Positions 115 to 63,620 of a stretch of DNA of 64,000 bases are shown here, piece after piece. The position numbers were made by a program, and so were the translations under genes. The first letter of the stretch is position 1; each line of letters starts with the position of its first letter. Source of the DNA: Meghimatium bilineatum (Eukaryota; Mollusca; Gastropoda; Stylommatophora; Philomycidae); NCBI GenBank assembly GCA_034231615.1, contig CM067298.1, forward strand, positions 9,662,140 to 9,726,139, written 5' to 3'. The notes under the pieces are model-generated. The model was not told the DNA's origin. It saw only the letters and a program-made list of their open reading frames with translations, and searched no databases.

Positions 115-263
115 AGTACAGTGTTACTTCACATAATAGCGTATACAAGCAAATTCAAGTAGGAAGCAAGAGGATAAATTATAAATTCTAGAAATAACTA
201 AAATTGATTCGGTGCCACTAGAACGGACTTGGTTCAATTCCCGTTAGTTTCTAGAATGAGATT

Positions 264-374
264 TTTCTTCTTCTTCTTTCGTTCACTTGAAACATGTCTA
301 TATATCTGTAATTCTGTCTCCTTAATAAAACTCACTGTCTTTTGTAGTTCATACAGTGTCCCATAGAGCTTTGA
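264..374 (-). mobile_element. LINE family N, 5'-truncated 3' end
   Basis: The sequence matches the last about 110 bp of the complete LINE at 58.8-62.9 kb almost base for base, including the (GAA)n tail, which reads as TTCTTC on the plus strand. It contains the end of the RNase H-bearing ORF and the short 3' UTR. The low divergence points to recent activity of family N. No clean target-site duplication was found. Confidence 0.8.
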
Positions 375-10419: not shown

Positions 10420-10887
10420 ATCATACACAGCGTATTTAGACTTCTTCTTCTTCTTCTGCGTTCGTTCTCAAATTCCTGCAGATTAGCAGGATGTAGTCCG
10501 GAGAACGGAATGCGTTGTGTCACGGTTTACAGCATTGCTGCGATATCTGTGCCTTTCGGCCTGACACATCCGACTTCAGCATGACTTTGGTTCACTAATC
10601 CTATATGGGATGGGGCAGCAAACTCCATCCAATAACCTCATTACTCGCCTCTTACGACATGCATGGAAGGTAAACAGTGTTGATATTCTTTGCTCCCCTT
10701 TCGGGCCCCGGCAACACACGGGCGTATTTAGACTTTATTAGGCCCCAAGCTATTTGAGATATGGGGGCCCTTTATGTCCAGATATTATATGTCAGTGCCA
10801 AATATAATTTTTTTGGGGCCCCCAAAACAGTGGGGGCTATAGCTATAGCTTGTTTAGCTTATGCGTAAATCCGGTCCTGATCATACA
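10420..10887. mobile_element. hAT-like MITE, interrupted by a SINE
   Basis: A perfect 8-bp direct repeat, ATCATACA, at 10420-10427 and 10880-10887 brackets an element that begins CAGCGTATTTAGAC and ends AAATCCGGTCCTG. The 5' CAG and 3' CTG ends, TTTA-containing inverted termini and an 8-bp duplication are hallmarks of the hAT superfamily. Removing the internal SINE and its duplication leaves about 160 bp, so the element is nonautonomous. GGCCCC/GGGGGC blocks inside can form a subterminal inverted repeat. Confidence 0.75.
10444..10721 (-). mobile_element. SINE type 1, full-length copy
   Basis: A 278-bp element is flanked by a perfect 14-bp duplication, GCGTATTTAGACTT, at 10430-10443 and 10722-10735. 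On the minus strand it starts near CCGTGTGTTGCCGGGGCC and ends GAACGAACGC(AGA)n with a GAA-type tail. Related copies lie at 11.5, 17.6, 35.6, 37.4 and 53.2 kb. No clear pol III A/B boxes were recognised, so its parent RNA is unknown. The tail resembles that of LINE family N. Confidence 0.85.
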
Positions 10888-11169: not shown

Positions 11170-11484
11170 TATAATTGATTATCTGACGATGGACGCGCGT
11201 AATACAGGGAGAAAACTCTCATTATGGCGGTCTATTTTATAGCGATAAAAATGGACACATGACAGAAATATGAACAGAATGTAGTATCGTGGGCATTAAA
11301 GAGAATGTCATATATTGATGAATAACGTACGTGGAACGGTGGACGGGAAAAGAGCATTGATAGATGATGGTTTATGAAAACAAGAGAGATATCAATAGTG
11401 GAAAACATTTACTCGAGATCAGATTTCATGCAAAATAACAAGAGATATTGTTTCTGTGTGTTTATTCTCAATCTTATGTTGATT

Positions 11485-11730
11485 AGCAGGATGTTGTCAA
11501 AAAAATAGAATGTATTGCGTTATTGTTACAACTCACCTGCGATATCTGCGTCTTTCGGCCTGATATTCGATTCCAACATGGGTTTTAGTGTACTTTGTTC
11601 TATGGGATTTGTTCTATGGGATAGTACAGATAACTCCATCTCCGAACCTTCGTCGCTTCCTACGGCATGCTTGCTATATCACAGCATTGTTATCCATTGA
11701 TCCAATTTCGGGCTTCACACCACATGGGCA
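11485..11730 (-). mobile_element. SINE type 1, degenerate copy
   Basis: The sequence aligns with the SINE at 10444-10721 throughout (AGCAGGATGTxGT, GCGATATCTGCG, CTTTCGGCCTGA, CTATGGGAT) but with many substitutions and small indels. It is an old copy. Confidence 0.75.
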
Positions 11731-16249: not shown

Positions 16250-16690
16250 TTTTTTTGGAGAGAAGAATACAGGCTCTTGATAAGAAGTATATTGAAATAA
16301 GTATTCCGCCGAAGACGGATGTGTCGGACCACTGGCGCAAATAAAACGGAGACACAACGCATTTCCATTCTCTGGACTTCATCCTGCTGGAAATCTATTA
16401 GGACCATGGTCCTGCTGTAAGGGAGATCCAGCGGGAGTTTGAGAATGAACGAAGAAGAAGAAGAAGAAATAAGTATACGGGCTCTTGATAAGAAGTATAT
16501 TTAAATAAGTATACGGGCTCTTGATTAGAAGTATATTGAAATAAGTATACGGGCTCTTGATAAGAAGTATATTGAAATAAGTATACGGGCTCTTGATAAG
16601 ATACTTATATTGAGAGAAGAATGCGGGCTCTTGATAACACATATATTGAGAGAATAATACAGGCTCTTGAAAAGAAATTGTACAGACGAA
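16250..16690. repeat. 36-bp minisatellite split by a SINE
   Basis: Tandem copies of a 36-bp unit with the core TACGGGCTCTTGATAAGAAG occupy 16255-16304 and 16470-16690. The SINE at 16305-16465 sits between them. The rightmost units are diverged. Confidence 0.85.
16305..16465 (+). mobile_element. SINE type 2 copy inside a minisatellite
   Basis: The plus strand runs from GCCGAAGACGGATGTGTCGG to GAATGAAC(GAA)n. The direct repeat GAAATAAGTAT at 16294-16304 and 16466-16476 is the target duplication, its first bases merging with the tail. Type 2 copies carry a GATCCAGCGGGAGTTTGAG end and a duplicated CCAGCAGGAT motif absent from type 1. Confidence 0.75.
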
Positions 16691-17184: not shown

Positions 17185-18190
17185 TAAGTGATACTTCTAC
17201 TAAAGTGATACTTCTACCAAAGTAATGCTTTTACTAAAGTGATACATCTACTAAATTGATACATCTACTAAAGTGATACTTCTACTAAAGTGATAATTCT
17301 ACTAAATTGATACTTCTACTAAAGTGATACTTCTACTAAATCGATACTTCTACTAAATTGATACTTCTACTAAAATGATACTTCTACTAAATTGATACTT
17401 CTACTACAGTAATTCTTCTACTAAAGTGATAATTCTACTACTGAAGTGATGCCTATACTAAATTTATACTTCAACTAAAGTGACACTGCTACTAAAGTAA
17501 TACTTCTACTAAAGTGATACTTCTAATGAAGTGCTAAAGTGATATTTAAACATTTTTTTAATGCGTTCGTTCTCAAACTCTTGCAGATTATGAGGATGTA
17601 GTCCAGAGAACGAAATGCGCTTTGTCATAGTTTACAGTATTGCTGCGATATCTACGCCTTTCGATTTGACACATCCGACTTGAGCATGGCTGTGGATCAC
17701 TGAACCTATATGGGATGGGACAGCCAACCCCATCCCATAGCCTCCTTAGTAACCTCTAACGACATGCATGGAAGGTAAACAGTATTGATATTCTTTGCTC
17801 CCCTCACGGGCCATGACAACACACTGACAATATTTATACTAAAGTGATAATTTAACTAAAGTGAAACTTTCACTAAAGTGGTACTTTTACTAAAGGGATA
17901 CATCTACTAAAGTGATGCATCTACTAAAGTGATACTTCTACTAAAGTGATACTTCTATTAAAGTGATACTTCTACTAAAGTGATACTTCTACTAAAGTGG
18001 TACATCTACTAAAATGATACATCTACTAAAGTGATGTATCTACTAAAGTGATAATTCTACTCAAGTACGAAAGAGCTATTTCTACCAAAGTGACTATTCT
18101 ACTAAAGTGATACTTCTAATAAAGTGATACCTATACTAAAGTGATACGTCTACTAAAGTGATACTTCTACTAAAGTGATACATTTACTAA
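17185..18190. repeat. 17-bp minisatellite split by a SINE
   Basis: Tandem ACTAAAGTGATACTTCT units with many single-base variants occupy 17185-17540 and 17840-18190. The SINE at 17552-17829 interrupts the array. Confidence 0.9.
17552..17829 (-). mobile_element. SINE type 1 copy inside a minisatellite
   Basis: The sequence aligns with the SINE at 10444-10721 over its full length. Near-identical direct repeats ATATTTAAAC (17542-17551) and ATATTTATAC (17830-17839) flank it. Its tail is a poly-T stretch on the plus strand instead of the usual TTCTTC run. Confidence 0.8.
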
Positions 18191-22068: not shown

Positions 22069-23346
22069 TCATTCATAATCAGACGAGTCAAATAGGTCGA
22101 TTACTGTTTTCGGCTGAACAAACAACAAACCTTCCTTTTTCCAATATTCCTCTTCTTGGCGTAACACATGATCCTCACATTTCACCCAGTAGTCTTTATG
22201 TATATTTGATAGAGCCTGATTTGTAAGTGTCTCAATATCACATAATTTGAAAGTTGTATTTGTAGATGCTACGTGTCCTTTAACTTTTGCCCAAATTAGC
22301 TCTATAGGATTTAAGTGTGCATGATATGGAGGTAGTCTCAAACATCTATGACCATGTTCTTCAATTAACTTGTCTATTTTAAATATCTTTGTTCGTTGTG
22401 TCTGTTTTACAAGGTTAAGCAATTCGGGTTTCAAGTACCTGTCGGTAACTGGTATGTGTTCTTTTATGAGCCACGTTTTGATTGCATCTTTTGTACTTGA
22501 TGATGTTGGGATTCTATCTTCTACGTTCACTACGTTATGGTATGAAGCATTGTCCATTATCAGACAAGAAGGTCTATCTAATATTGGAAGAATACTTTTT
22601 TCGATCCAGTCTTCGAATATGTGCCCATACATTTCGGAGTGGTAGTCTCTATTGTCAATGGATTTTGAAATGAAAATTAGATGAGCATTCTGCAACAACC
22701 CATTATGTCTGCTACCTGCATGTGCAACTATCAAACGTTGCCCTTTACTACTTGGTACTGATCTTTTAATACTTCCATCTGCTAACTGCCATTCCTTTTC
22801 ATTTGTATGATGAGCGTTGATCCAAGTTTCATCTAAATACACAATATCATAACCATTCTCGCGCATTCCCTTCACTTCACGTAAATACTTGCTTCTAAGA
22901 GCTACCAGATGTGGCTTTTCACAAATAATGTTTTTTCCACCAGCATACTTTCTAAAGGTGAAGCCTGCATTTCTTACAGTTTTCCATAATAAAGTTTTTG
23001 ATATTTCAATGTCGTTATTAGTTTTCAGCCAAATCTTCAACTTTCTAAGTGTCACTTCTTCGTTTTTATCAAACATTCTACATATTTCTCTTTTTACTAG
23101 GTCCTTATCGAAACTGTCTATCTTTTCTTTCCTTCCTTGCTTTCGTGAATTTGTTGGCAATAAATATCCGCTTGCTTCCACTATTCGATCAAATGAACGT
23201 TTACACAAACCTAAAATATGCATTGTTCTCTTCTCAGGATTTGATAAAGAACAATAAAGATGTCCCTTTTTACGCTCTCTGCAGAAGTATTGATAAATCT
23301 TTATAGCAATGTTATGCTCAGTAAAATATTTCGCTTTCAGATTCAT
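22069..23346 (-). CDS. IS630/Tc1/mariner transposase, Sailor-like
   Basis: An uninterrupted 425-codon frame encodes a DDE transposase that would cut and rejoin transposon ends in the nucleus. The first in-frame ATG is at 23346, preceded by an upstream stop. Residues 35-130 look like helix-turn-helix DNA binding. The catalytic triad is D172 (YLDETW), D265 (IMDNASYH) and E349 (PPYHAHLNPIELIW). The last two are separated by 83 residues, far more than the 34 of Tc1 or mariner and close to the DD82E spacing known for the Sailor group. The C-terminus is acidic (FDSSDYE). Terminal inverted repeats could not be recognised, so element borders are unknown. All catalytic residues are present, so activity is possible. 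Two dead relatives lie at 24.7-27.9 and 50.5 kb. Confidence 0.85.
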   Translation of the reverse strand: MNLKAKYFTEHNIAIKIYQYFCRERKKGHLYCSLSNPEKRTMHILGLCKRSFDRIVEASGYLLPTNSRKQGRKEKIDSFDKDLVKREICRMFDKNEEVTLRKLKIWLKTNNDIEISKTLLWKTVRNAGFTFRKYAGGKNIICEKPHLVALRSKYLREVKGMRENGYDIVYLDETWINAHHTNEKEWQLADGSIKRSVPSSKGQRLIVAHAGSRHNGLLQNAHLIFISKSIDNRDYHSEMYGHIFEDWIEKSILPILDRPSCLIMDNASYHNVVNVEDRIPTSSSTKDAIKTWLIKEHIPVTDRYLKPELLNLVKQTQRTKIFKIDKLIEEHGHRCLRLPPYHAHLNPIELIWAKVKGHVASTNTTFKLCDIETLTNQALSNIHKDYWVKCEDHVLRQEEEYWKKEGLLFVQPKTVIDLFDSSDYE

Positions 23347-23819
23347 TCTCACATAGACTTGCAGAAGGTAATATGCTTAGTGCCGCCTACTTTCTGTAAA
23401 TATTGAGACGTGCCTCTGACTTGTGACTTGAAATCGAGTAAATAGCCGTTTTTGATTTCACATAATTCTAAGTTCAGGAAAAATAATATTTGGTGCTAAA
23501 CGGGAATTTCCATATGTAACATTGCTTTATACAAATGTACAGTGGAAACAACTACTTTTAGAACGGTGCACATTCTACCGTGAGGGTCATGCCTTTATAT
23601 TTAATAATCAGCTGTGAGATGTAAGCATCTACATAATCCAGCGGTTGTTTATAATTTAGATTAACTTTTTTTTAATATAGGTTAAATAAGATATCTTTGA
23701 TACTGGATCACATTTCTTTGATAAAAAAATATTTCTATAGCGACATTATTATTCTAAACCTAACTTCAAATGATCAATCCAAATGAACAATACGTTTTTG
23801 ATAAAAATAATTTAACATC

Positions 23820-25803: not shown

Positions 25804-26861
25804 CTCTTCTTCTTCTTCTTTCGTTCACTTGAAACATGTCTATATCTGTAATTCTGTCTCCTTAATAAAACTCACTGTCTTTTGTAGTTCATACAGTGTC
25901 CCATAGAGCTTTGATTCCAGTGTTGTTTCCTCTAGCCAATATGTCTGCCTCAGCGTTTCATGCTCAGAACACTCTTGAAGTATATGTTTGGCACTCTGTG
26001 CTGCCTGTCCACATGTACACATGGCCATGTTGCCAATCTTGAACTTTGTATACATGTGACTGCGGAGTCGGTTGTGTCCTGTTCTGAGACGTAGAATTAT
26101 AACTTGTTCTGATCTGTTCATAATGTGATAGTCATCTTGTGTTGGTGTTTGTGGCTTTCTTATTGACTTTATCATCTGCTTTTTTCTGATGGTAGGTGAT
26201 TGGTATATCTGGTTGGTCTTCGGCAGCACCTTCCTTAGCCAGTTGGTCTGCTTTTTCATTTCCTGGTATTCCACAGTGAGAGGGTATCCACTGCATGGTT
26301 ACCCTATACTGGTAAGACAATTCGCTAAGTAGTTTTTTTTTAAGTCTATTAGTTTTCCAGACTGGAGAGCTTGAAGCACTGACATTTCATCTGTCAGGAA
26401 TACCACAGGCTGTAGGCCAGAGTTGGAGTTCAGCAGTTTTTTAGCTGCCACACTAATTGCCTGGAAATAAACACTAACTGACCCATCTGTGTACACTCTG
26501 ACCCATATATCTTGTGGATATTCCTCATCCAGGAAACTGAGGGTGACTGTCATTCGCTGCACACTGTTCTTTTCGTCCTCGCTTAGTATTCCTTTCACGT
26601 GGGTCTGAATGTATATTGGCATTCCATGGCTTTCACTCCACTGGGATTGTTCTGGTACAGACCTTAAGGGGCTGTCAACTTCAGGTAGGTCTGTAAGTTG
26701 TCTACGGAGTCGTTTAGCTTGATGGATAAAGCTGCTCCTTATCAGTCGCCCCATTGCTAGATTTTGGAATCTTTCCTTCATTGGATGACGTGGCATACAC
26801 TGAAACTTTTCTGCTTGAATTAGTACTTTAGTGTCTCTGCGTTCGCCAAGTGTTTGCATTC
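25804..26861 (-). mobile_element. LINE family N, 5'-truncated copy nested in LINE Q
   Basis: A perfect 14-bp duplication TTCGGTCACCTTAT lies at 25790-25803 and 26862-26875. The insert matches the 3' quarter of the complete N element (RNase H and C-terminus) and carries its (GAA)n tail. One internal deletion removes the RNase H region between YTDGSV and ITVAAKK, including catalytic E1076 of the full copy. Elsewhere the two are nearly identical, indicating recent insertion. Confidence 0.9.
25840..26320 (-). pseudogene. RNase H C-terminal region of LINE N copy
   Basis: Two overlapping minus-strand frames carry SYQYRVTMQWIPSHCGIPGN and then a tail with MCTCGQAAQSAKHILQEC. They are offset by a one-base change near 26180. 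The Cys/His motif matches the complete element. No function is expected. Confidence 0.75.
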
Positions 26862-27118
26862 TTCGGTCACCTTATGAGAATGAAGCCACTACTAAATACC
26901 AATAAGAGCATATAATACAAGAATATTCGGGCGTAAAGCCAAAGGTAGACCAAGAAAACGGTGGATAGAAAACATTAAGATAACCTTGAACAAACATGGA
27001 CTAAATGCAACCTAGGCGACACATCTGGCCTTGAAACGACAGTTTAAGATACCACCCCTACGCTTAACGGCAAGTGTGAATGCGATCAACAATAATTCAC
27101 CTGGGGATAGACACTAGA

Positions 27119-31454: not shown

Positions 31455-31733
31455 TGTCTGTATGACTACACGATATTACAGAATTCTGAACTAATCAACA
31501 GAGAAATAGGAAATGCAGAAATTCTAGTAGATGAAATAAAAGAGGCCATACGAACATTGAAAGGAGGGAAGTCACCTGGTGTAGACAACATTCCAGCAGA
31601 ATTGTTGAAATACGGGGGCATTAATGTGGTAAATATTATGACCAAAATATGCCAAAATATATGGAACACAAAACAATGGCGCACTGAGTGGACACAAACA
31701 CTAATATACCAATTCCCAAGAAAGGAAATTTGA
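31455..31733 (+). pseudogene. LINE R reverse transcriptase, N-terminal part before the frameshift
   Basis: The frame contains LKGGKSPGVDNIPAELLKYGG, the conserved block at the start of LINE reverse transcriptases, then WRTEWTQTLI. The expected next motif, PIPKKGNLKVC, is found one base out of frame. A single small indel therefore disables the ORF. Confidence 0.75.
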
Positions 31734-33034
31734 AAGTGTGTACAAATTACAGAACAATTAGCCTTATAACACACCCCAGTAAAGTGATGCTCAAAATACT
31801 ACTTAGAATAAAACACAAGTCGGAAGAAATAATTGCAGAAGAACAAGCTGGCTTCAGAGCAAACAGAAGCACTATTGAACAAATATTTAACATCCGAACA
31901 CTGATTGAAAAACATATTCAGCACCAACGTGATCTATACCACAACTTCATTGACTTTATAAAGGCCTTTGATCGTGTTTGGCATGATGGTCTTTGGCACA
32001 TACTGAGGAAATTTAATTTTGACACCACAGTTATAGACATTATTGAAGCTCTATACGAAAATGCAAATAATGCTGTCTTGTCACACAATACAATTGGAGA
32101 GTTCTTCAAAACAACTGTGGGAGTTCGACAGGGATGCATAATGTCCCCAGTACTTTTTAACATATACTTAGAGCACATCATACAAGAGACATTGCATGAC
32201 TACAACACGTCTATATCGATCGGAGGTCGCCCTATTTGCAACTTGCGTTTCGCTGATGATATTGATCTTATAGCTGGGTCAGAACAATCATTGCAAGAAT
32301 TAACATCAAAGTTAGAAAAAGTTACCAGCAAGTACGGAATGGAAATCAATTCAGATAAGAGCAAAATCTTGGTAAACAGCAGAGACACAGAAAACCAGAC
32401 TAATATCATGATGAATGGACATAAGCTTGAAGAGGTGAATACCTTCAAATACCTCGGATCCAGTATATGCAGCGATGGTAAATGCAAAGCAGAACTAAAA
32501 ATAAGGCTGGAGATGGCTTTAGCGTCCTTGTCAAAGCTAACTGTGATTTGGAAAAGCAACATCAGTGTTGGAGTGAAAATCAAACTGTATAGGTCGCTGG
32601 TGCTTTCCGTTGTGTTGTATGGTTGTGAGAGTTGGACACTCACTGCGGACATGGAGAGAAGATTACAGGCTTTCGAGTATAAATGCTACAGAAGAATTCT
32701 ACGAATTTCCTATAGGGAACATAAGACCAATGTGTACGTAAGAAATAAAGTAGAGATGTGTGCAGGTGTCCAAGAGCCATTGCTTTCAATAGTGAAACGA
32801 CGAAAACTAGCATGGTTCGGACATTTATGCAGGCACGATTCCTTGTCAAAAACAATACTGCAGGGAACTGTCGAGGGTGGAAGAAGCAAAGGAGGACAAA
32901 TACAGACATGGACAGACAACATCAAGGAATGGACAGGGCTAGATATTTCCACACTCATCCGCATCTCTGAGGATAGAATTCGCTGGAGGACTCTGTGTGC
33001 TGAAGCTTCCAATGTGGTACCCCTACGACCCTGA
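31688..33034 (+). CDS. LINE R reverse transcriptase, main open part
   Basis: A 448-codon open frame covers most of a non-LTR reverse transcriptase, which primes cDNA synthesis from nicked target DNA. Motifs in order are PIPKKGN (about residue 7), NYRTISL, AGFRANRST, FIDFIKAFDRVWH with the first catalytic Asp, GVRQGCIMSPVLFN, FADDIDL with the catalytic Asp pair, and FKYLGS. Then come a YGCESWT block, WFGHLCRHDS and a C-terminal VVPLRP. The fingers start in another frame upstream and the endonuclease is absent. The listed start is only the first codon after the shift, not a real initiation site. Such sequences are widespread in corals, molluscs and fish. Confidence 0.8.
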   Translation: MDTNTNIPIPKKGNLKVCTNYRTISLITHPSKVMLKILLRIKHKSEEIIAEEQAGFRANRSTIEQIFNIRTLIEKHIQHQRDLYHNFIDFIKAFDRVWHDGLWHILRKFNFDTTVIDIIEALYENANNAVLSHNTIGEFFKTTVGVRQGCIMSPVLFNIYLEHIIQETLHDYNTSISIGGRPICNLRFADDIDLIAGSEQSLQELTSKLEKVTSKYGMEINSDKSKILVNSRDTENQTNIMMNGHKLEEVNTFKYLGSSICSDGKCKAELKIRLEMALASLSKLTVIWKSNISVGVKIKLYRSLVLSVVLYGCESWTLTADMERRLQAFEYKCYRRILRISYREHKTNVYVRNKVEMCAGVQEPLLSIVKRRKLAWFGHLCRHDSLSKTILQGTVEGGRSKGGQIQTWTDNIKEWTGLDISTLIRISEDRIRWRTLCAEASNVVPLRP

Positions 33035-33224: not shown

Positions 33225-35620
<2,396 letters not shown>

Positions 35621-35624
35621 GATC

Positions 35625-35774
35625 AAAGAGACACAGAAGCCAAGCTAATATCGGATGTGTCAGGCCGAAATGGGCAGACACCACAGCGAAGTTGTAAGTT
35701 ATGAGATAACGCATTCCGTTCTCCGGACTACAACCTGCTAATCTGCGGTAGCGTGAGAGTGTACGCAGGAGAAA
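35625..35774 (+). mobile_element. SINE type 1 segment, left flank of a LINE N copy
   Basis: The segment contains CGGATGTGTCAGGCCGAAA and CGCATTCCGTTCTCCGGACT, the SINE 3' half in plus orientation. It is about 86 percent identical by eye to 37393-37542, from AGAGACACAGAAG to GTACGCAGGAGAAA. The LINE N copy begins directly after it. Confidence 0.75.
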
Positions 35775-37392
35775 TAGGATCGATGCCTTAACCCTACGGG
35801 AAATAGATGTGCCCCAGCGTTAACACAGGTAAGTGCAGCACTACACTCTTTACCTTCTTACCACAACACAAGGCGGCTGTTATCAAGATAGATGGAGAAC
35901 TTTTGAAAGAAGACAAACAACCCATATACCTCGGAGTTACTTTTGATGATAAGCTGACATGGAAGCAACACGTAAACAAAACAACAATAAAAGTCAGGAG
36001 GAAGTTAGCTATCATGAGACAACTAAGTGGAGCCACATGGGGAGGCAGTGGGATTATACTCCATAAAGTTTACCAGCAAGGCATAAGAGCACACCTGGAA
36101 TATGGTTCAGCTGCGTGGTGTCCTGCATCAAACACCACACTACAAGATCTAGATAAAGTGCAAAACCAGACACTTAGGATAATGTTGGAATAAATGAAAT
36201 CAACACCCATAGCAGAGATGTAGAAAATGGGAAGAACAGAAATAATTGACGAAAGAAGAGACACAAAAGTACTAATACAAGCAGCAAGTTTCACTGTAGT
36301 ATGCCAATTCATCCTATGAAGGAAAAATTTCAACATCTAGCAATGCGGCGACTGATATAATGCAGCTTTATCCCCACCAAGCTAAAGGAGCCCGTAGACA
36401 ACCTACAGATCTACTTGAAGTTGACAGCCCCTTAAGGTCTGTGCCAGAAATAACCCCTTGGAGCGAAAGGCATGGAATACCAATATACATTCAGACCCTC
36501 GTGAAAGGAATACTAAGCGAGGACGAAAAAAATAATGTACAGCGAATGACAGTCACCCTTAGTTTCCTGGACGAAGAATATCCACAAGACACATGGGTCA
36601 GAGTATACACAGATGGGTCAGCACAGAATGCAGTGAGGAATGGAGGTGCAAGTGTATATATAGAATATCCACACAAGCCTAGAGATACAATCAGAACACA
36701 AACACGAAAATTCTGAAATACTTATGATGCAAAAATCCAGGCAATTAGGGTAGCAACTGAAACACTGTTGTATTCCAACCCTGGTCCATAGCATGTTGTA
36801 TTCCTGACAGATACAAGGTCAGTGCTTCAAGCTCTCCAGTCTGGAAAACTAACAGACTTACAAAAACCACGTAATGAATTGTCTTACCAGTATAGGGTAA
36901 CCATGCAGTGGATACCCTCTCATTGTGGAATACCAGGAAATGAAAAAGCAGACCAACTGGCTAAGGAAGGTGGTGCCGTAGACCAACTAGATGTACCAAT
37001 CACCTACCATCAGAAAAAACAGATGATCAAGTCTATAAGAAAGCCACAACCACCAACACAAGATGACTATCACATTATAAAGAGATCAGAGCAAGTTGTA
37101 ATTCTATGCCTCAGAACAGGACACAACCGACTCCACAGTCGCATGTACAGAAAGTTCAAGATTGGCGACACATCCATGTTTAATTGTGGACATGCAGCAC
37201 AGAATGCCAAACATATACTTCAAGAGTGCTCTGAGTAGGAAACGCTGAGACAGACATATTAGCCAGAGGAAACAACACTGGAATCAAAGCTCTATGGCCA
37301 CAGTATGAACTACAAAATAGAGTGAGTTTTATCCAGGTGGCAGAATTACAGGTATAGACATATTTCAAATGAACGAAAAAAGAAGAAGAAGA
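35775..37392 (+). mobile_element. LINE family N, old 5'-truncated copy
   Basis: This copy matches the complete N element from the reverse transcriptase thumb to the (GAA)n tail. Several in-frame stops (near 36192, 36714 and 37237) and substitutions show it is old. It is bracketed by the two SINE segments as if they were a very long target duplication. Confidence 0.85.
35807..37350 (+). pseudogene. LINE N polyprotein remnant (RT thumb to RNase H)
   Basis: Conceptual frames show LGVTFDDKLTWKQHVNK, YGSAAWCPASNTTLQDL, VRVYTDGSAQNAVRNGGA, VVFLTDTRSVLQAL, MQWIPSHCGIPGNEKADQLA and a CGHAAQNAKHILQEC tail. RNase H Asp residues are kept, but stop codons cut the frame into at least four pieces. It has no coding function. 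Confidence 0.8.
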
Positions 37393-37542
37393 AAAAAGAG
37401 ACACAGAAGTCATGCAATAGTCAGATGTGTCAGGCCGAAAGAAGCAGATATCACAGCTAAGCTGTAAGTCATGGAACACCGCATTCCGTTCTCCGGACTA
37501 CAACCTACCAATGTGCAGTAGCGTGACAGTGTACGCAGGAGA
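37393..37542 (+). mobile_element. SINE type 1 segment, right flank of a LINE N copy
   Basis: This is the counterpart of 35625-35774, starting at AGAGACACAGAAG immediately after the LINE N tail. It ends at the same internal point, GTACGCAGGAGAAA, as the left copy. Confidence 0.75.
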
Positions 37543-37544
37543 AA

Positions 37545-38025
37545 AAGCATTACGTGCGTCGGTCAACGTCAAAAAACATTTCCTGGTTCCTAAAGCTTTT
37601 ATTATGACGCAAGGAAGGGTTGGGGGGGAGGGTGGGGTGTTGGTCCTAAATATAGCCAATGTCACAAAAGTTGAGAACCACTGCGTCAGGGAATATCTCG
37701 TACAAAGTAAGAAGATTCCTGTGGGATTCTTTCATCGATTTGTCATCGTCATCTTTCTCTCCCTTCTCTTTTAGACTTAGGGCATATACGCATTAACTTT
37801 AGGTACATATTCACAATCCTCCCGGTCTATTCTCACATCCTGCTTGTGTTGCTAACATTCTACAGTACGTTCTCGTGCAACAGTGTAGACTTTTGTACTG
37901 TAAAAACTACTTTATTTTTACAAAAAATAAAACAAGCAACTTAAGGTTCACAGAATAGTTTAAACAAGACAGAGCAATTAGGTCGAATCTTTAAAAGAAA
38001 TGCCAGTTCAATAATAGAACAGTCA
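37545..38025. other. No gene recognised
   Basis: AT-rich unique-looking DNA between LINE debris and the large minisatellite. No domain-bearing ORF is present. Confidence 0.4.
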
Positions 38026-38029
38026 TTTC

Positions 38030-41000: not shown

Positions 41001-43030
41001 AATACTACACTTCATGCAGGTGCACAGTTCTAATACTACACTTCATGAAGGTGCCCAGTTCTAATACTACACTTCATGCAGGTTCACAGTTCTAATACTA
41101 CTACACTTCATGCAGGTTCACAGTTCTAATACTACACGTCCTGCAGGTGCACAGTTCTAATACTACTACACTTCATGCAGGTGCACAGTTCTAATACTAC
41201 ACTTCATGCAGGTTCACAGTTCTAATACTACACTTCATGCAGGTGCACAGTTCTAATACTACATTTCATGCAGGTGCACAGTTCTAATACTACTACACTT
41301 GATGCAGGTGCCCGGTTCTAATACTACATTTCATGCAGGTACACAGTTCTAATACTACACTTCATGCAGGTGCACAGTTCTAATACTACTACACTTCATG
41401 CACGTGCACAGTTCTAATACTACTACACTTCATGCACGTGCACAGTTCTAATACTACTACACTTCATGCAGGTGCACAGTTCTAATACTACTACACTTCA
41501 TGCAGGTGCCCAGTTCTAATACTACTACACTTCATGCAGGTGACCAGTTCTAATACTACAAGACTTCATGCAGGTGCACAGTTCTAATACTACTACACTT
41601 CATGCAGGTGACCAGTTCTAATACTACTACACTTCATGCACGTGCACAGTTCTAATACTACTACACTTCATGCAGGTGACCAGTTCTAATACTACTACAC
41701 TTCATGCAGGTGCACAGTTCTAATACTACTACACTTCATGCAGGTGCCCAGTTCTAATACTACTACACTTCATGCAGGTGCACAGTTTTAATACTACACT
41801 TCATGAAGGTGCACAGTTCTAATACTTCACTTCCTGCAGGTGCACAGTTCTAATACTACACTTCATGAAGGTGCCCAGTTCTAATACTACTACACTTCAT
41901 GCAGGTGCCCAGTTCTAATACTACTACACTTCATGCAGGTGCCCAGTTCTAATACTACACTTCATGAAGGTGCCCAGTTCTAATACTACTACACTTCATG
42001 CAGGTACACAGTTCTAATACTACTACACTTCATGCAGGTGACCAGTTCTAATACTACTGCACTTGATGCAGGTGCACAGTTCTAATATTACTACACTTCA
42101 TGCAGGTGCACAGTTCTAATACTACTACACTTCATGCAGGTGACCAGTTCTAATACTACTGCACTTGATGCAGGTGCACAGTTCTAATATTACTACACTT
42201 CATGCAGGTGCACAGTTCTAATACTACTACACTTGATGCAGGTGCACAGTTCTAATATTACTACACTTCATGCACGTGCACAGTTCTAATACTACACTTG
42301 ATGCAGGTGCACAGTTCTAATACTACACTTCATGAAGGTGCACAGTTCTACTACTACACTTCATGAAGGTGCACAGTTCTAATACTACACTTGATGCAGG
42401 TGCACAGTTCTAATACTACTACACTTCATGCAGGTGCACAGTTCTAATACTACACTTCATGAAGGTTCACAGTTCTAATACTACACTTCATGAAGGTGCA
42501 CAGTTCTAATACTTCACTTCCTGCAGGTGCACAGTTCTAATACTACACTTCATGAAGGTGCACAGTTCTAATACTACACTTCATGAAGGTTTCAGTTCTA
42601 ATACTACACTTGATGCAGGTGCACAGTTCTAATATTACTACACTTCATGCACGTGCACAGTTCTAATACTACTACACTTCATGCAGGTGCACAGTTCTAA
42701 TACTACACTTCATGAAGGTGCACAGTTCTAATACTTCACTTCCTGCAGGTGCACAGTTCTAATACTACACTTCATGAAGGTGCACAGTTCTAATACTACA
42801 CTTGATGCACGCGCACAGTTCTAATACTACACTTCATGAAGGTGCACAGTTCTAATACTACATTTCATGCAGCTACACTGTTCTAATACTACACTTCATG
42901 CAGGTGCACAGTTCTAATACTACTACACTTTATGCAGGTGCACAGTTCTAATACTACTACACTTCATGCAGGTGCACAGTTCTAATACTACACTTCATGC
43001 AGGTGCACAGTTCTAATACATCTACACTTA
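38030..43030. repeat. 5-kb minisatellite with 31/34-bp units
   Basis: Roughly 150 tandem copies of CTTCATGCAGGTGCACAGTT followed by CTAATACTACTACA, in a 34-bp form or a 31-bp form that lacks one ACT triplet. Most units are over 90 percent alike. Recurrent variants (GTGCCCAG, GTGACCAG, GAAGGTGCAC, TTGATGCAG, CGTCCTGCAG) appear in neighbouring groups, suggesting higher-order duplication. There are no long ORFs. Confidence 0.97.
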
Positions 43031-43224
43031 ATATAGATTTTTTTTAAAAATCAATCTCGATGTGTCATCAAAAGGCGTGTCCACATCAAACACGCGCGCA
43101 TAAAGCTGTTTCAGCATGTCGTACATCCATTTGGTAACAGTTGGTATGGGTAAAATATGACTCTCTTCCAAATCGCGAACACGGATTCATGTGACCTTCT
43201 TCTCGATGATCTTGCCTGTTCTAC

Positions 43225-48240: not shown

Positions 48241-48364
48241 TCTATTATCCTTCAGTGCCAAAGACAGTGCATATGGCAGAAAGAAGAGTTCCTCAGTTCG
48301 AGTCATGTGATGTTACTTTGTTTAATTCTTGTATGTTATTCGATAATAAATAATGAATATCGAT

Positions 48365-48960: not shown

Positions 48961-49139
48961 ATGATGTATGTTATTGAGAGCCATAATTGTACCCTCTTTA
49001 ATGTTTTTTCTCTGTGCGGGTAGTTACCAATAGGATATTTACAACATGGTATGCATTGGTTATTTATTCATCATTGCAATTATTGCAAAGTTTATATTAA
49101 ATATATAATTTCTTCTTGTTTTACATACAATTTAACCAT

Positions 49140-49200
49140 GCCAACGCATTCAATTCTCCTGACTACATCCTGCTAATATGCAGGAGTTTGAGAAAGAACG
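49140..49200 (+). mobile_element. SINE type 1, 3' end fragment
   Basis: CGCATTCAATTCTCCTGACTACATCCTGCTAAT-type text and GGAGTTTGAGAAAGAACG match the last 60 bp of the SINE. The tail is ATAAATAAAA instead of GAA repeats. Confidence 0.65.
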
Positions 49201-49214
49201 TAGATAAATAAAAC

Positions 49215-49754: not shown

Positions 49755-49935
49755 ACCTTCTTCTTTTTCAGCGTTCATTCTCAAATTCCGACTGGATCTC
49801 TCTTGTAACAGGACAATGGTCCTACTAGATTTCTAGCAGGTTGAAGTCCAGACAGTGGAAATGTCGTGTCACCGTTTTATGTGCCAATGGCCTGACACAT
49901 CCGTCTTCGGTGGGAATATCCGTTGATCTTTATCG
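49755..49935 (-). mobile_element. SINE type 2 copy
   Basis: In minus orientation this is the same arrangement as 16305-16465. On the plus strand it reads TTCTTCTTTTTCAGCGTTCATTCTCAAATTC, then GGATCTC, GGACAATGGTCCT, CAGCAGGTTGAAGTCC and CTGACACATCCGTCTTCGG. The tail is interrupted. Confidence 0.7.
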
Positions 49936-53154: not shown

Positions 53155-53411
53155 TTCAAAAGGGGAGCAAAGAATAATGTCACTGTTACCTGCCAGACAT
53201 ATTGTAAGAGGTGACTAAAGAAGTTGTGGGCAGGACAATTGGCTGTCCCATCTCAAGGATACTCAAATTGACCCATAGGCCATGTTGAAGTCAGATGTGT
53301 CAGGCCAAAAGGTTCAGATATTCCAGCAGAGCTGTAAATCATGACACAATGCAATCTGTTCTCTTGACTACATCTGCTGATCCGCAGGAGTTTGAGAACT
53401 AAAGCAGAAGT
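53155..53411 (+). mobile_element. SINE type 1, near full-length
   Basis: The copy runs from AAAAGGGGAGCAAAGAATA through GTAAGAGGTGACTAAAG and CAGATGTGTCAGGCC to GCAGGAGTTTGAGAACTAAAGCAGAAG. It is the best plus-strand copy of the family. The terminal (GAA)n is reduced to one or two triplets. Confidence 0.8.
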
Positions 53412-53434: not shown

Positions 53435-53600
53435 AGTTTGTTCTCAAACTCCTGCTGGATCTCAATTGTAGTGTGACAAAAGCCATTCTAGATTTCCAGC
53501 AGGATGTAGTCCAGAGAATTGAGATGTGTTGTGCGACCGACTTGTGTGCCAATAGCCTGACACTTCAAACTTTGGTGGTGTTAAATTCATTCAAAACAAG
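53435..53600 (-). mobile_element. SINE type 2, tail to tail with the type 1 copy
   Basis: The segment starts GTTTGTTCTCAAACTCCTGC on the plus strand and continues through GGATCTCAATTG, CCAGCAGGATGTAGTCC and CCTGACACTTCAAACTTTGG. With 53155-53411 it makes an imperfect inverted repeat around a 20-bp spacer. Confidence 0.7.
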
Positions 53601-58812: not shown

Positions 58813-61800
58813 AATATTACCAATTCTTCTTCTTCTTCTTTCGTTCACTTGAAACATGTCTATATCTGCAATTCTGTCTCCTTAATAAAACTCACTGTCT
58901 TTTGTAGTTCATACAGTGTCCCATAGAGCTTTGATTCCAGTGTTGTTTCCTCTGGCCAATATGTCTGCCTCAGCGTTTCATGCTCAGAACACTCTTGAAG
59001 TATATGTTTGGCACTCTGTACTGCCTGTCCACATGTACACATGGCCGTGTTGCCAATCTTGAACTTTGTATACATGTGACTGCGGAGTCGGTTGTGTCCT
59101 GTTCTGAGACGTAGAATTATAACTTGTTCTGATCTGTTCATAATGTGATAGTCATCTTGTGTTGGTGTTTGTGGCTTTCTTATTGACTTGATCATCTGTT
59201 TTTTCTGATGGTAGGTGATTGGTATATCTGGTTGATCTTCGGCAGCACCTTCCTTAGCCAGTTGATCTGCTTTTTCATTTCCTGGTATTCCACAGTGAGA
59301 GGGTATCCACTGCATGGTTACCCTATACTGGTAAGACAATTCGCTAAGTAGTTTTTTCAAGTCTGTTAGTTTTCCAGACTGGAGAGCTTGAAGCACTGAC
59401 CTTGCATCTGTCAGGAATACCACAGGCTGTAGGTCAGAGTTGGAGTTCAGCAGTTTTTTAGCTGCCACAGTAATTGCCTGGATTTCTGCATCATAATTAT
59501 TGCAGAATTTTCCTGTCGGTGTTCTGATTGTATCTCTAGGCTTGTGTGGATATTCTATATATACACCTGCACCTCCATTCCTCACAGCATTCTGTGCTGA
59601 CCCATCTGTGTATACTCTGACCCATATATCTTGTGGATATTCCTCGTCCAGGAAACTGAGGGTGACTGTCCTCCGCTGCACACTGTTCTGTTCTTCCTCG
59701 CTTAGTATTCCTTTCACATGGGTCTGAATGTATATTGGCATTCCATGCCTTTCACTCCATGGGGTTTGTTCTGGTACAGACCTTAAGGGGCTGTCAACTT
59801 CAGGTAGGTCTGTAAGTTGTCTACGGAGTCGTTTAGCTTGATGGATAAAGCTGCTTCTTTTCAGTCGCCCCAATGCTAGGTTTTGGAATCTTTCCTTCAT
59901 TGGATGACTTGGCATACACTGAAACTTTTCCGCTTGAATTAGTACTTTTGTGTCTCTGCGTTCGCCAAGTGTTTGCATTCTTCCCATTTTCTGCATCTCT
60001 GCTATGGGTGTTGATTTCATTGCTCCCAACATTATTCTAAGTGCCTGGTTTTGCACTTTATCTAGATCTTGTAATGTGGTGTTTGATGCAGGACACCACG
60101 CAGCTGAACCATATTCCAGGTGTGGTCTTATGCCTTGCTGGTAAACTTTACTGAGTATATTCCCACTGGCTCCCCATGTGGTTCCACTTAGTTTTCTCAG
60201 GATAGCTAACTTCCTCCTGGCTTTTGTTGTTCCTTTGTTTATGTGCTGCTTCCATGTCAGCTTATCATCAAAAGTAATTCCGAGGTATGTTGGTTGTTTG
60301 TCTTCTTTCAAGAGCTCACCGTCTATCTTGATATGACCGGCTTTTTGTTTTGGTGAGAGGGTAAAGAGTGTAGTGCTGCACTTATCTGTGTTAATGCTGA
60401 CACACCATCTATTTGCCCATAAGGTTAGGGCATCGATAGCTCTTTGTATTTGTTTAGTGGCCACTGTCGCATGTTCTTCCGTGCACCAGATCACCAGGTC
60501 GTCAGCATACATTGCCACTTTGATCCCGTGTGGTAGTTCAGCAACTAGGTCATTGATGTAAACCAAGAAAAGTGTGGGTGACAGGACTCCTCCCTGGGGG
60601 ACTCCATGACGCAGTAGGACTTTCTTGCTTTTGCGACCATCTAATTGTACCCTGGCTCTTCTATTATGCAGGTATGCTTTTACCCATTTGTACATTCTTG
60701 AGCTAACCCTGCAATTTCGCAATTTCTTTAGGAGCCCTTCTTTCCAGACCTTATCAAATGCTTTCCTGAGGTCTATCCATGCTGCTAGTACCAGTTTCTT
60801 ATCTTGGAAGGCATCCTCAATCTCTTGGGAGAGGTAGGTTGCCTGATCTTCAGTAGAGTAGCACTGTCTGAAACCTGCTTGCTGTGATACCAGAAGGTTT
60901 TCACTTTCAAGGTACCACTGCATCCTAAGATTGATAATGCGTTCCATTGTTTTGCATAGACAGCTTGTGAGGCTGATGGGCCTGTAGTTGGAGACTGTGT
61001 TGCCATCTTTTCCTGATTTGAGGAGAGGTATCATTATTGCTTCTCTCCATGCCTGTGGTACATTACCTGTGGACCAGCTTGTGTTAAAGATTTGCAGCAG
61101 CTTTGCTCTTGCTGCAATTCCCAGGTTTCTAATCATTTCATTGGACACTCCATCAGCTCCAGGGGACTTTTTCATTTTCAATTTGGATATTGCATGCTCC
61201 AGTTCTCTCATTGTGATTGGTGCCTCCATGACTTCAGGTATAGGTTCGTCTTGTCCAATGTTTTGCTGGTTCGCTCGAACCTCCTGTTGTTTGTCTGGGC
61301 TGACTTTGACGTTATTGTCTTCTGCAAAGGAATCTGCAAAGTAATCAGCTGCATGTTTACCTGTTAAAATGTTTTTATCTTTATAAAGTGTGATCCTGGT
61401 ATTTCTCCCTGTACCTTCATCATTTAGTTGTTTTACAAGTTTCCATAATTTCCTAGTATCTCTTTCTAGGTTCAGCGACTCTCTTTTTTCTTTCCAGCTG
61501 TTCCGTCTGGCTTGTAACTTGGCTCTTTGAAATTTAGCCTTTGTTTGCTGATATTTGTTGTGATGTTCTTGGCTAGGTCTGTTCTCAGCCTGCTTTCTAG
61601 ATGTTTCCATCTCATTTTGCAGCTTTTCCAGTTCATCATTCCAGTAGGGTTTGTAGTTTTTGCGTGCCCCCCTGGGTATGGTTTTACTAGCAGCATGTAG
61701 TATACATCTATTAAATTCACTCACTGCTCTATTGATGTCTTTGTCCAAGTTCATGTCCTTAGCTAGAACACTGGTTAAATGCTGGTACATTTTCCAGTCT

Positions 61801-62892
61801 GCCCTCTTATAGTTCCACCTAGTGAGCGTGCTGCTGTCCTTGGTATATTCATTGTGAATTTCCAGAAATACTGGTCTGTGGTCACTACCCCCAAGCTGCT
61901 TTCCAACGACACATGTGATGTTCCATTCCAGGCCTGGTGAGTGGAATGCCAGATCTGGTGTAGAGGTGGTGTGCCATGCTCTCGAGTAGAAGTTTGGTGA
62001 GTCAGCTGGCTGGTTAATAAGAATGAGATTATTTTCATCCTGCCAGCTCTCAAGTTCCTCACCTCTCTTGTCGATATGATCGTAGCCCCAGCTCTGAGAG
62101 TGGCTGTTGAAGTCACCACACACCATAAGCCTTTCTTTGTCTGGAATTGTGTCTAGTGCCAATGGTTTATCATTTGGGCAGTAGTAGTTCAGGAGATGGA
62201 ATTCTGCACTGTCTGTTTTTAGGTGGAGCATCTGGTATTCTGCCCCGTCCATGTATACTTCCAGCTGACATGCGCTGATATTGTTTTTAACTAGTGTCAG
62301 AATTCCACCCTTTCGCCTGTCTTTTCTGTCAGATCGGTAGCACTGGTAGCCTCTGATTTTGAAGGCTATGTCGCTGCTGAGGTGTGTTTCTTGGATACAG
62401 CATATATTAACTTGTTCTTCACTGAGGACATTTTCAAGTTCCAATTTTTTGCTGTATCCATCTCTTTTACTGTTGACACCCTCAGCATTCCAGTGCATTA
62501 TTTTTATTGGTCGTTTGTTTGTTTGGCCAGTAGCTCTATTCCCTTGCCTCCTGGCTCCTCGGGGCAATTGAGAAGGACTTCCAGTAACTGAGGTTGGGCC
62601 CTTTCGAGGTATAGGGCCCGGCACCGTCCCTGCCTGAACGTCCGCCACAGGGCAGGCACCATAACGTTTATTAGATGCAGACATGTTTCCATTGTGTTTT
62701 ATGCGTGGCAACCTGATTATCTGTGCGCCTTTTGGCTGGTTGCCTCCGTCTTCAGCACTCTGCTTACTTGGGCCGGACTATGGTCCTGCTCGAGTGGGAG
62801 TGCCCGACCAGTCTTAGTTTCCAGCCTCTGATGGCTGAACTAAGCCCCATCACCACTTCAAAGTTCTGGCCTCGATGGGGAATATTACCAAT
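58813..62892 (-). mobile_element. LINE family N, complete element with 12-bp target duplication
   Basis: Perfect 12-bp direct repeats AATATTACCAAT at 58813-58824 and 62881-62892 enclose a 4056-bp element on the minus strand. It has a 5' leader of about 170-200 bp, one long ORF, a 3' UTR of about 20 bp and a (GAA)n tail. There is no separate ORF1. The domain order endonuclease, reverse transcriptase, RNase H puts it in the I group of LINEs, Nimb-like being my best guess. Intactness and the perfect duplication indicate a very recent insertion. It is antisense to the putative host gene. Confidence 0.92.
58860..62684 (-). CDS. LINE N polyprotein: endonuclease, reverse transcriptase, RNase H
   Basis: The uninterrupted ORF would copy the element's RNA into nicked target DNA. 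I start at the first in-frame ATG, 62684; the frame stays open upstream to about 62780 without another ATG. Numbering from an upstream TTG at 62711, the APE-type endonuclease spans about 69-286 (N75, E108 in QETH, D200 and N202 in GDFNSHSQSWG, D253 in TPDLAF, D277-H278 in SDHRP). Reverse transcriptase spans about 500-800 (IDLRKAFDKV with D647, GVPQGGVLSP, YADD 735-738). RNase H spans about 1030-1155 (D1036 in YTDGS, E1076, D1102, H1139, D1149). A Cys/His cluster C1225, C1227, H1236, C1241 ends it. All catalytic residues are present, so it may be active. Truncated relatives are at 0.26, 25.8 and 35.8 kb. Confidence 0.93.
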   Translation of the reverse strand: MSASNKRYGACPVADVQAGTVPGPIPRKGPTSVTGSPSQLPRGARRQGNRATGQTNKRPIKIMHWNAEGVNSKRDGYSKKLELENVLSEEQVNICCIQETHLSSDIAFKIRGYQCYRSDRKDRRKGGILTLVKNNISACQLEVYMDGAEYQMLHLKTDSAEFHLLNYYCPNDKPLALDTIPDKERLMVCGDFNSHSQSWGYDHIDKRGEELESWQDENNLILINQPADSPNFYSRAWHTTSTPDLAFHSPGLEWNITCVVGKQLGGSDHRPVFLEIHNEYTKDSSTLTRWNYKRADWKMYQHLTSVLAKDMNLDKDINRAVSEFNRCILHAASKTIPRGARKNYKPYWNDELEKLQNEMETSRKQAENRPSQEHHNKYQQTKAKFQRAKLQARRNSWKEKRESLNLERDTRKLWKLVKQLNDEGTGRNTRITLYKDKNILTGKHAADYFADSFAEDNNVKVSPDKQQEVRANQQNIGQDEPIPEVMEAPITMRELEHAISKLKMKKSPGADGVSNEMIRNLGIAARAKLLQIFNTSWSTGNVPQAWREAIMIPLLKSGKDGNTVSNYRPISLTSCLCKTMERIINLRMQWYLESENLLVSQQAGFRQCYSTEDQATYLSQEIEDAFQDKKLVLAAWIDLRKAFDKVWKEGLLKKLRNCRVSSRMYKWVKAYLHNRRARVQLDGRKSKKVLLRHGVPQGGVLSPTLFLVYINDLVAELPHGIKVAMYADDLVIWCTEEHATVATKQIQRAIDALTLWANRWCVSINTDKCSTTLFTLSPKQKAGHIKIDGELLKEDKQPTYLGITFDDKLTWKQHINKGTTKARRKLAILRKLSGTTWGASGNILSKVYQQGIRPHLEYGSAAWCPASNTTLQDLDKVQNQALRIMLGAMKSTPIAEMQKMGRMQTLGERRDTKVLIQAEKFQCMPSHPMKERFQNLALGRLKRSSFIHQAKRLRRQLTDLPEVDSPLRSVPEQTPWSERHGMPIYIQTHVKGILSEEEQNSVQRRTVTLSFLDEEYPQDIWVRVYTDGSAQNAVRNGGAGVYIEYPHKPRDTIRTPTGKFCNNYDAEIQAITVAAKKLLNSNSDLQPVVFLTDARSVLQALQSGKLTDLKKLLSELSYQYRVTMQWIPSHCGIPGNEKADQLAKEGAAEDQPDIPITYHQKKQMIKSIRKPQTPTQDDYHIMNRSEQVIILRLRTGHNRLRSHMYTKFKIGNTAMCTCGQAVQSAKHILQECSEHETLRQTYWPEETTLESKLYGTLYELQKTVSFIKETELQI

Positions 62893-62894
62893 GA

Positions 62895-63620
62895 GAATCA
62901 TAGCATACGAAGAACGAGACATAGGCACATACAATATTTATTTTACACTAACCAGTAATCAAATCTCCTTTGATTACTGCGCATACTAATTATATCTTGC
63001 TTATCACTCGTGATGATTTAGTATATGAAATTTCAGCTATGTTGGTGTTGTAAACAACCTTTTATAATTTCACTGTATATTTACAACTCTCTGTTTATAT
63101 TCAACATTTTCAGTATATATTTGTACTGATCATTTAGTTTTGTAAATATTCAAGCTTGACATCCAATATTTTTATTCAGATGTGATATTGCAGCACCCCA
63201 TCGAGTCCATCTCCTTGAAGGGAAGATGTGGCTTAGTCCAGCCAACGGAGGCTAGAGACTATGATTGGTTGAACCAATCTTAACATTGAGCAGAATCTCG
63301 GTCCTGCCCAAGCAATCACTGGTACTGGTTGAAATCAGGCCAAGAGGCGCATGAGCAACCACGGTATCATGCAACACAACTAGATATATTATATGCTAGA
63401 TAACATGTCTTCGCAACAAAATACTTGCTGTGTAGACATGTTAAACTTTGAATGAGAAGAAGATATTGCAGTATATATTCACACATGATGATGGTGTAAG
63501 TGGGCTTGTCATTCCTTCCACATTCTGTGGGAGACTCTTTGTGGTTTATAACATTCTTGTGAGTCACATCCATCATCACCATGGATCATAGATAACATTT
63601 CTTATAACACATCAATAACA
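62895..63620. other. Diverged LINE N 5' leader relative and spacer
   Basis: At 63190-63365 the plus strand resembles the minus-strand 5' leader of LINE N: ATCGAGTCCATCTCC, GTGGCTTAGTCCAGCCAACGGAGGCT, GGTCCTGCCCAAG and CCAAGAGGCGCATGAG against the corresponding blocks. This suggests an inverted, older relative of which only the leader is recognisable. The rest is unassigned AT-rich DNA. Confidence 0.45.

Follow-up and report, generated by a model that had tools for sequence, protein, structure and literature searches.

A structured 5'-UTR RNA domain as the likely link between short GAA-tailed elements and the LINE N lineage

A complete copy of a SINE with a (GAA)n tail lies at 10442-10721 of the window, by which we mean the whole analysed stretch of 64,000 nucleotides (G000:C1:9662140-9726139, from a genome of 1.61 Gb in 32 contigs). 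The same window carries LINE N, which also ends in (GAA)n. Does N mobilise the SINE, and which part of the sequence ties the short element to the long one? The partner of a SINE is usually identified through a 3' tail that the two have in common, and the original prediction had proposed that N acts through a shared 3' end.

The SINE copies and their families

The element predicted at 10444..10721 proved to be real, a complete minus-strand copy whose two flanking 12-bp duplicates (GTCTAAATACGC, at 10430-10441 and 10722-10733 of the plus strand) match perfectly. Its layout from the 5' end is (CGC)CCGTGTGTTGCC.., a D domain, a 3' hairpin (E) and GAACGC + (GAA)n, the CGC at the start of the type 1 consensus being a 3-nt overlap with the target duplication. 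The D domain comprises TGCTGAAGTCGGA, a 7-bp stem (TGTGTCA/TGACACA) with an inner hairpin (GCC-GAAA-GGC), and ACGCA. The 3' arm of hairpin E is GTTTGAGAACG in the consensus and ATTTGAGAACG in this copy. Both the 5' boundary and the tail recur at seven further loci (L002-L008).

All eight SINE copies claimed for the window are present, and we have added two more (49134-49204 and 53435-53577; Table 1). The tail strings quoted for them were exact at 10458 and 17563 (first form) and at 16438 (second form), but one or two letters off at 49771, 49187 and 53391; the copy at 17563 has no GAA tail. Similarly, the end of LINE N (TTTCAAGTGAACGAA), described as the same in every copy, was seen without change in three of the four copies found in the window and with one change in the fourth (37363).

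Table 1. Coordinates of the SINE copies, LINE N copies and their domains (window positions unless a locus is named)
Feature	Positions	Strand	Remarks
Type 1 SINE, complete	10442..10721	-	95.5% to type 1 consensus; (GAA)n tail from 10442, 5' end ~10721
D domain of the 10442-10721 copy	10509..10581	-	Model R1, 91.4 bits
3' hairpin (E) of the 10442-10721 copy	10459..10512	-	Fold; model R2, 59.6 bits
Type 1 SINE, degraded	11457..11713	-	
Type 2 SINE, GAACGAAGAAGAAG tail	16305..16468	+	
Type 1 SINE, tail lost	17562..17840	-	
Old type 1 piece	35616..35773	+	In left copy of 157-bp direct repeat around old N insertion
Old type 1 piece	37397..37547	+	In right copy of 157-bp direct repeat around old N insertion
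Type 1 3' piece	49134..49204	+	R2 match
Type 2 SINE	49771..49913	-	R1 and R2 matches
Type 1 SINE, diverged	53159..53410	+	R1 match
Type 2 SINE, diverged	53435..53577	-	R2 match; R1 only 13.8 bits (E=0.67)
LINE N, full-length	58813..62892	-	Span includes 12-bp duplication ATTGGTAATATT; 5' end CCCCATCGAGG at 62880; (GAA)n ends 58824
3' end of N	58824..58862	-	Stop codon, then ACATGTTTCAAGTGAACGAAA(GAA)n; 3' UTR ~20 nt ahead of repeat
D domain in N 5' UTR	62700..62757	-	Stem GGCAACC/GGTTGCC; 15 nt upstream of first in-frame ATG (62684)
Remaining N 5' UTR	62758..62880	-	Helices in HDV-like order
Older N copy	35779..37393	+	88.8% to young copy; flanked by 157-bp direct repeat
N copy, 5'-truncated, two pieces	25805..26864	-	
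N copy, short, 5'-truncated	262..374	-	
Short element of N-related LINE N2	63194..63462	+	5' UTR plus 3' end ..GTAGACATGTTAAACTTTGAATGAGAAGAAG; model R3, 62.1 bits, E=1.4e-16
Mini-N in locus L004	2284-1908 of L004	-	Internally deleted, 5' UTR + 3' end

The tail 30-mer GGAGTTTGAGAAYGAACGHWGAAGAAGAAG has 29,176 exact matches genome-wide (14393 + 14783; reversed-pattern control, 0), and the 35-nt end of LINE N has 12,965 in the 1.61-Gb genome (6497 + 6468; control, 0). The zero counts of the controls speak against chance; both families are very large, and the original observation holds. In ~269 kb we have resolved 113 SINE pieces, with two bounded families. Without the tail, type 1 measures ~267 nt and type 2 ~149 nt, and the two are represented by 25 and 29 full-length copies, respectively. 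Of the copies whose 3' end is intact, 27/52 of type 1 and 30/42 of type 2 begin within the first 10 positions. A third, diverged type has the common ending TTTGAGAACGAACGC.

The elements are short and non-coding, reach high copy number and have a defined 5' end, target duplications and a repeated 3' tail, all of which are SINE features. The search for A and B boxes gave best scores no better than those of shuffles (reached by 146/300 for type 1 and 296/300 for type 2, with 0/300 for a tRNA-like control), no tRNA was detected in the window, and no tRNA, 5S or 7SL head was found in the SINEs. By strict definition, the elements are therefore SINE-like. Rfam returned no family at gathering scores and, over the 10442-10721 copy, a single weak and unrelated match (sR52, E=0.98).

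Three further features were recorded. At G000:C1:7898695-7946011, the GAACGAAGAAG form of the SINE tail occurs six times in one orientation, at intervals of 9.3-9.6 kb, which suggests a large tandem repeat carrying a SINE copy. Window positions 38029-43032 hold a large tandem array with ~90% self-similarity over 5 kb, and positions 22069-23376 (-) hold a DDE_3 transposase ORF of 435 aa (E=2.8e-14).

Domain D in the SINEs and in the LINE 5' UTR

Plain alignment of the N 5' UTR with the SINEs was only suggestive of similarity (p 0.001-0.01). Hence, we have built a covariance model, and it was the structure model that made the case. This model, R1, was derived from an alignment (A1) of 25 SINE copies and no LINE; the 25 were taken from 28 aligned D copies, which in turn comprised 24 of the 46 blast-complete copies and four of type 3. 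The 16305-16468 copy was used in building both R1 and the hairpin model R2 described below, and its matches to both are by construction.

R1 found the N 5' UTR at 62700-62757 (-) with 38.5 bits, corresponding to E=1.9e-6 in the window and to E=1.3e-7 in a 4.5-kb search without filters, the next match outside the SINEs and N reaching 14.9 bits (E=0.38, window). Under R1, all 12 pairs of the N domain are standard, and the closing stem departs from the SINE consensus on both sides at five of its seven pairs. Near the first in-frame ATG, the domain of N reads TGCTGAAGACGGA, GGCAACC, AGCCAAAAGGCGCACAGATAATCA, GGTTGCC and ACGCA, and that of type 1 reads TGCTGAAGTCGGA, TGTGTCA, GGCCGAAAGGCGCA..., TGACACA and ACGCA. 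The stem is TGTGTCG/CGACACA in type 2 and TGTGCTG/CAGCACA in a type 3 copy. Outside the stem arms, identity to the D of N is 33/38 for type 1, 30/38 for type 2 and 29/39 for the related LINE N2. As to position, D is internal in type 1, at the 5' end in type 2 and at the end of the 5' UTR in the LINEs.

Other members of the LINE lineage were also recovered. An unfiltered R1 search of 24 kb matched the N derivative in L004 (38.4 bits) and, more weakly, the N2-type LINE in L011 (25.9 bits, E=5e-4), together with 5'-UTR pieces in L024 (26.0 bits) and, weakly, in L059 (17.2 bits, E=0.045). In 204 kb, L104 (38.4 bits), L096 (33.2 bits) and L011 (25.9 bits, E=0.004) were found, and the L059 piece was not listed at E<=0.01. 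The D of the N2 element at 63194-63462 is too decayed for R1 to list it.

The same stem was predicted by RNAalifold from seven LINE-side 5' UTRs with no SINE included, four of the seven rows being N or its derivatives. Both-side changes were present at 5/9 pairs of this D helix, and the 38-pair LINE-side structure was 95.5% paired, compared with 29-41% when the partners were slid. Cells paired, both-side-changed cells and the covariation score all exceeded every one of 500 LINE-side shuffles. The number of pairs with both-side changes was not exceptional (reached by 35/500 shuffles on the SINE side and 39/500 on the LINE side), and further pair types were reached by 176/500 and 477/500, respectively. 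Between N and its derivatives, the stem has undergone a compensatory change (GGCAACC/GGTTGCC vs GGCATCC/GGATGCC). Based on these data, we regard it as very likely that the SINEs share D with the 5' UTR of the N lineage.

Model R3, which represents the part of the N 5' UTR preceding D (62758-62850), matched no SINE either in the window or at five type 1 loci; a 26-nt R3 match at 49806-49831, inside a type 2 hairpin, had E=1.6. The palindrome AGGACCATRGTCCTGC occurs alike in the N 5' UTR and in the type 2 hairpin (p ~0.007-0.01) and may be chance.

A separate observation concerns the extreme 5' end of the N-clade LINEs (62758-62880 (-), L004, L011, L024, L059, L096 and L104), which has a possible HDV-like helix order. 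In HDV-like ribozymes this order is P1-P2-P3-P1'-P4-P2', starting from the first nucleotide. The predicted N-clade helices are P1 (CCCCATC/GATGGGG), P2 (GGCCAG/CTGGTC), P3 and P4, with AACTAAGA in the place of J4/2, invariant in 7/7 rows. The four helices are 92.9-100% paired over the seven rows; pairs changed on both sides are limited to one in P2 and one in P3. Rfam returned no match to this 5' end at E<=5.

LINE N, its derivatives and the 3' ends

LINE N has an APE-type endonuclease (Exo_endo_phos, 5.5e-13), a reverse transcriptase (RVT_1, 3e-39) and an RNase H (RNase_H, 3.6e-16) in a single ORF, which identifies it as an I-superfamily LINE. Its 5' UTR starts at 62880 and runs up to the first in-frame ATG (62684). 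The related N2 (L011 family) is ~53% identical to N in the APE region, and its 3' end has GAAYGA followed by GAA letters, as judged from three copies: L018, L034 (CAAATGAGATG) and 63194-63462. The latter is a complete short element flanked by a 9-bp duplication (ATATTGCAG, 63185-63193 and 63463-63471).

Short derivatives of N itself were also detected. In these mini-N copies, the first ~190-377 nt of N are joined to its last ~85-185 nt. Two (L096 and L104) were found among 19 informative N ends, out of 20 fetched, and a third (L004) came from outside that sample. Their junctions lie at three different positions, and each copy has its own target duplication of 11-12 nt. Splicing was considered as their origin and is unsupported, as GT-AG is absent at all three junctions. 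Having both a LINE 5' terminus and a LINE 3' terminus, the three mini-N copies qualify as SIDEs; the N2 piece at 63194-63462 probably does so as well. The SINEs do not, D being the only common LINE part found in them. Together, the mini-N copies and the similar N2 product indicate that the machinery of this lineage appears to accept RNAs that keep only the D-bearing 5' UTR and a short 3' end.

The original prediction looked to a common 3' end of at least 30 bp, unique to N. No such end was found: outside (GAA)n, N and the SINEs have only GTTT..GAACG in common, with no upstream extension. A one-gap alignment before (GAA)n sets GTTT-GAGAAY-GAACG of the SINEs against GTTT-CAAGT-GAACG of N. Compared with 20,000 random stretches per comparison, which were drawn from the whole window and thus include the SINEs and N, this match had p 0.01-0.04 for type 1, 0.05-0.2 for type 2 and 0.02-0.15 for type 3. 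The best case was the type 2 variant ending GAACGAA (p 0.003-0.015), with p 0.05-0.2 for the form ending GAACGCT.

In both type 1 and type 2, the last ~55-90 nt fold as a long hairpin (RTTCTCyGGAC...CCTGC / GCRGG-A-GTTT-GAGAAY), followed by GAACG + (GAA)n, and the GTTT-GAGAAY letters form its 3' arm. The hairpin alignment A2 holds 23 of 55 unique 3' domains, and the 10442-10721 copy is among the 23 in model R2. Across these copies, 94.3% of cells pair. One pair is variable (A-U 13, G-C 7, G-U 2, unpaired 1), giving both-side changes at 1/16 pairs, and in the shuffle control two measures were reached by 488 and 492 of 500 shuffles. As no other pair is changed on both sides, the evidence for the hairpin comes mainly from folding; its pairing can explain the conservation of the GTTT-GAGAAY letters in the SINEs. 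All 11 R2 matches in the window were in SINEs (ten copies and the opposite strand of one). R2 did not find the hairpin in the 3' end of N, its best match in the N region (10.1 bits, E=0.35) falling in flanking sequence.

We have then surveyed the tails. In 272 kb, consisting of the window and SINE-anchored loci and therefore mostly SINE-anchored rather than random, there were 93 runs of (GAA)3+, of which 71 had the SINE tail motif (including one duplicate entry, locus L001 being part of the window). The remaining 22, classed manually, were LINE N (8), decayed SINE tails (6) and runs that are not element tails (8), so that no LINE other than N was recognised in this sample as having a (GAA)3+ tail. 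Judged by eye, other window LINEs end differently, 31688-33034 running into ATAGATATAGATAG and 48211-48849 into GATGATGACGATGATG. Genome-wide, 46 atypical tails were inspected and no LINE with the exact SINE tail was found among them. These were 30 of the 89 tails without GG before TTTGAGAA, 29 of which had a SINE upstream and one (L045) had none, and 16 of the first 100 of 290 tails selected by excluding the SINE upstream letters, which comprised 14 SINEs and two tails (L073 and L079) with no recognised element.

SINEs and N have the same 3' terminal repeat, (GAA)n, and their target duplications are similar. In 110 SINE copies tested, 24 of 43 candidate duplications were 10-12 nt long; for N, five of the eight copies with both ends in view had duplications of 11-15 nt, and none was seen at L093, L002 and window 262-374. 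Such duplications are ordinary for endonuclease-type LINEs, and hence do not single out N.

The median divergence from consensus was 1.2% for N (13 copies), 4.7% for type 1 (10 copies) and 8.2% for type 2 (18 copies), in samples that required an exact tail match and so favour young copies. N had its main burst after those of the SINEs, and the waves overlap only partly. This comparison omits seven of the 20 N ends: L086, L093, L095, L096 and L104, which are truncated, interrupted or deleted, L101, with 105 nt only, and L092, an older copy (85.9%) whose omission makes N look slightly younger. An earlier activity of N is recorded at 35779-37393, where the truncated insertion is flanked by a 157-bp direct repeat (35625-35780 and 37395-37550) whose copies are 85% identical. 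If this repeat is a target duplication, the 15% between its copies would place the insertion at ~8% per side, within the SINE age range. The repeat already held a SINE piece, and could be either a target duplication of unusual length or a tandem duplication that includes this piece.

Probable mobilisation of the SINEs and comparison with known systems

The proposal that N mobilises the SINE thus largely loses the common 3' end on which it was based, but the partnership with N gains independent support from the common D, the GAA tail and the short derivatives, from which we infer mobilisation. In N, GAACG-A-(GAA)n forms the end, and the short 5'+3' derivatives have duplications of the SINE-like kind. 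D is near the 5' end of N and not at the start of reverse transcription, so sharing D would not by itself demonstrate mobilisation. Taking the evidence together, types 1, 2 and 3 are rather probably short non-autonomous retroposons of the LINE N lineage. That N or older relatives of N move them appears likely to a similar, moderate degree, and the data suggest that the lineage gave the SINEs part of their sequence.

A bolder, tentative reading, to which we give well under even odds, is that the partnership is anchored by the structured 5'-UTR domain D and not by a 3' tail, D being a cis signal (promoter, RNP assembly or translation) of an I-superfamily LINE clade taken over by short elements that have their own 3' ends and only GAACG-(GAA)n in common with the LINE. 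In the main reading, the SINE RNA would probably be transcribed from a LINE-type internal promoter, considering that pol III boxes were not found, and would be bound by an N-lineage protein. Its unpaired GAACG-(GAA)n end could be used for target-primed reverse transcription, presumably at sites where the duplication mostly starts with A or GA. D may serve a step common to LINE and SINE, be it promoter activity, RNP binding or translation.

Alternatively, the main motor could be another LINE of the N clade, either N2 or one that escaped detection, with the D and GAACG-(GAA)n of N explained by common descent. The N2 3' end (..GTAGACATGTTAAACTNYGAAYGA(GAA)n, few copies) has GAAYGA before its GAA letters, a short N2 derivative with its duplication is present in the window, and the bursts of the SINEs predate the main one of N. 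However, the D of the SINEs is nearer to that of N than to that of N2, the GAA-tailed LINE recognised in the 272-kb sample is N, and the atypical genome tails that we inspected yielded no LINE with the exact SINE tail. We consider this alternative possible but unlikely.

Classic stringent 3'-tail pairing with N, the SINE tail being a relic of an older N 3' end, would fit the presence of GTTT-(5-6 nt)-GAACG directly before (GAA)n in both SINEs and N, with the best p of 0.003-0.015. It is rendered improbable by the lack of any upstream extension, by the p of 0.05-0.2 for the type 2 form GAACGCT, and by the hairpin with one covarying pair to which the SINE letters belong and which can explain their conservation. 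Finally, capture in the reverse direction, the LINE clade having incorporated a domain of the SINEs into its 5' UTR, is conceivable in that sequence alone does not give the direction, but is very improbable, because D is similarly placed before the ATG in N and L011 despite endonuclease regions only ~53% identical, and is therefore probably old in the LINE clade, and because the SINE flanks were not found in the LINE, only D being common.

The tail is nearly uninformative here, but an RNA structure in the LINE 5' UTR connects tens of thousands of short elements with a single LINE lineage. Should D function in LINE and SINE alike, it would be a concrete, testable RNA signal for the transcription or packaging of I-superfamily LINEs and their parasites. 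Where the partner of a SINE has not been found, it may also be worth searching the 5' UTRs of LINEs with structure models.

The literature searched, which covers mollusc SINEs only in part, showed no equivalent of a SINE-LINE link via a 5'-UTR domain, and an earlier description is possible. The mollusc SINE superfamilies V, Meta, Deu and Nin (PMC10294476, PMC11121367) are alike in being short families with conserved internal domains. Those of PMC10294476 measure 174-404 bp, a tRNA-like head was required in their curation, and of eight bivalve SINE families only three are stated there to have a known LINE donor. In contrast, no tRNA-like head was detected in the present elements. The Persaeus/Zenon SIDE-CR1 pair of Lepidoptera is likewise a short LINE derivative spreading with its partner LINE; it belongs to the CR1 clade, however, and its replication waves coincide, whereas the overlap here is only partial (PMC6740152). 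R2 SIDEs and R2/R1 hybrid SIDEs are internally deleted 5'+3' LINE derivatives moved by LINE machinery (PMC3414825). The mini-N copies are of the same kind. The abundant SINEs differ in lacking both the 5' terminus of the LINE and any long part of its 3' end; D and a short terminus are what they have in common with it.

A further comparison is offered by the Pr77 hallmark of the trypanosomatid ingi/L1Tc LINEs and of NARTc, RIME and SIDER, for which promoter and HDV-like ribozyme functions have been reported (PMC8190864). Pr77 is 77 nt long and stands at the 5' ends of all members (PMC8190864), whereas D lies at the end of the LINE 5' UTR, internally in type 1 and at the 5' end in type 2. In both systems, autonomous and short elements carry a common conserved structured sequence, located in the 5' region of an endonuclease-RT LINE (PMC8190864).
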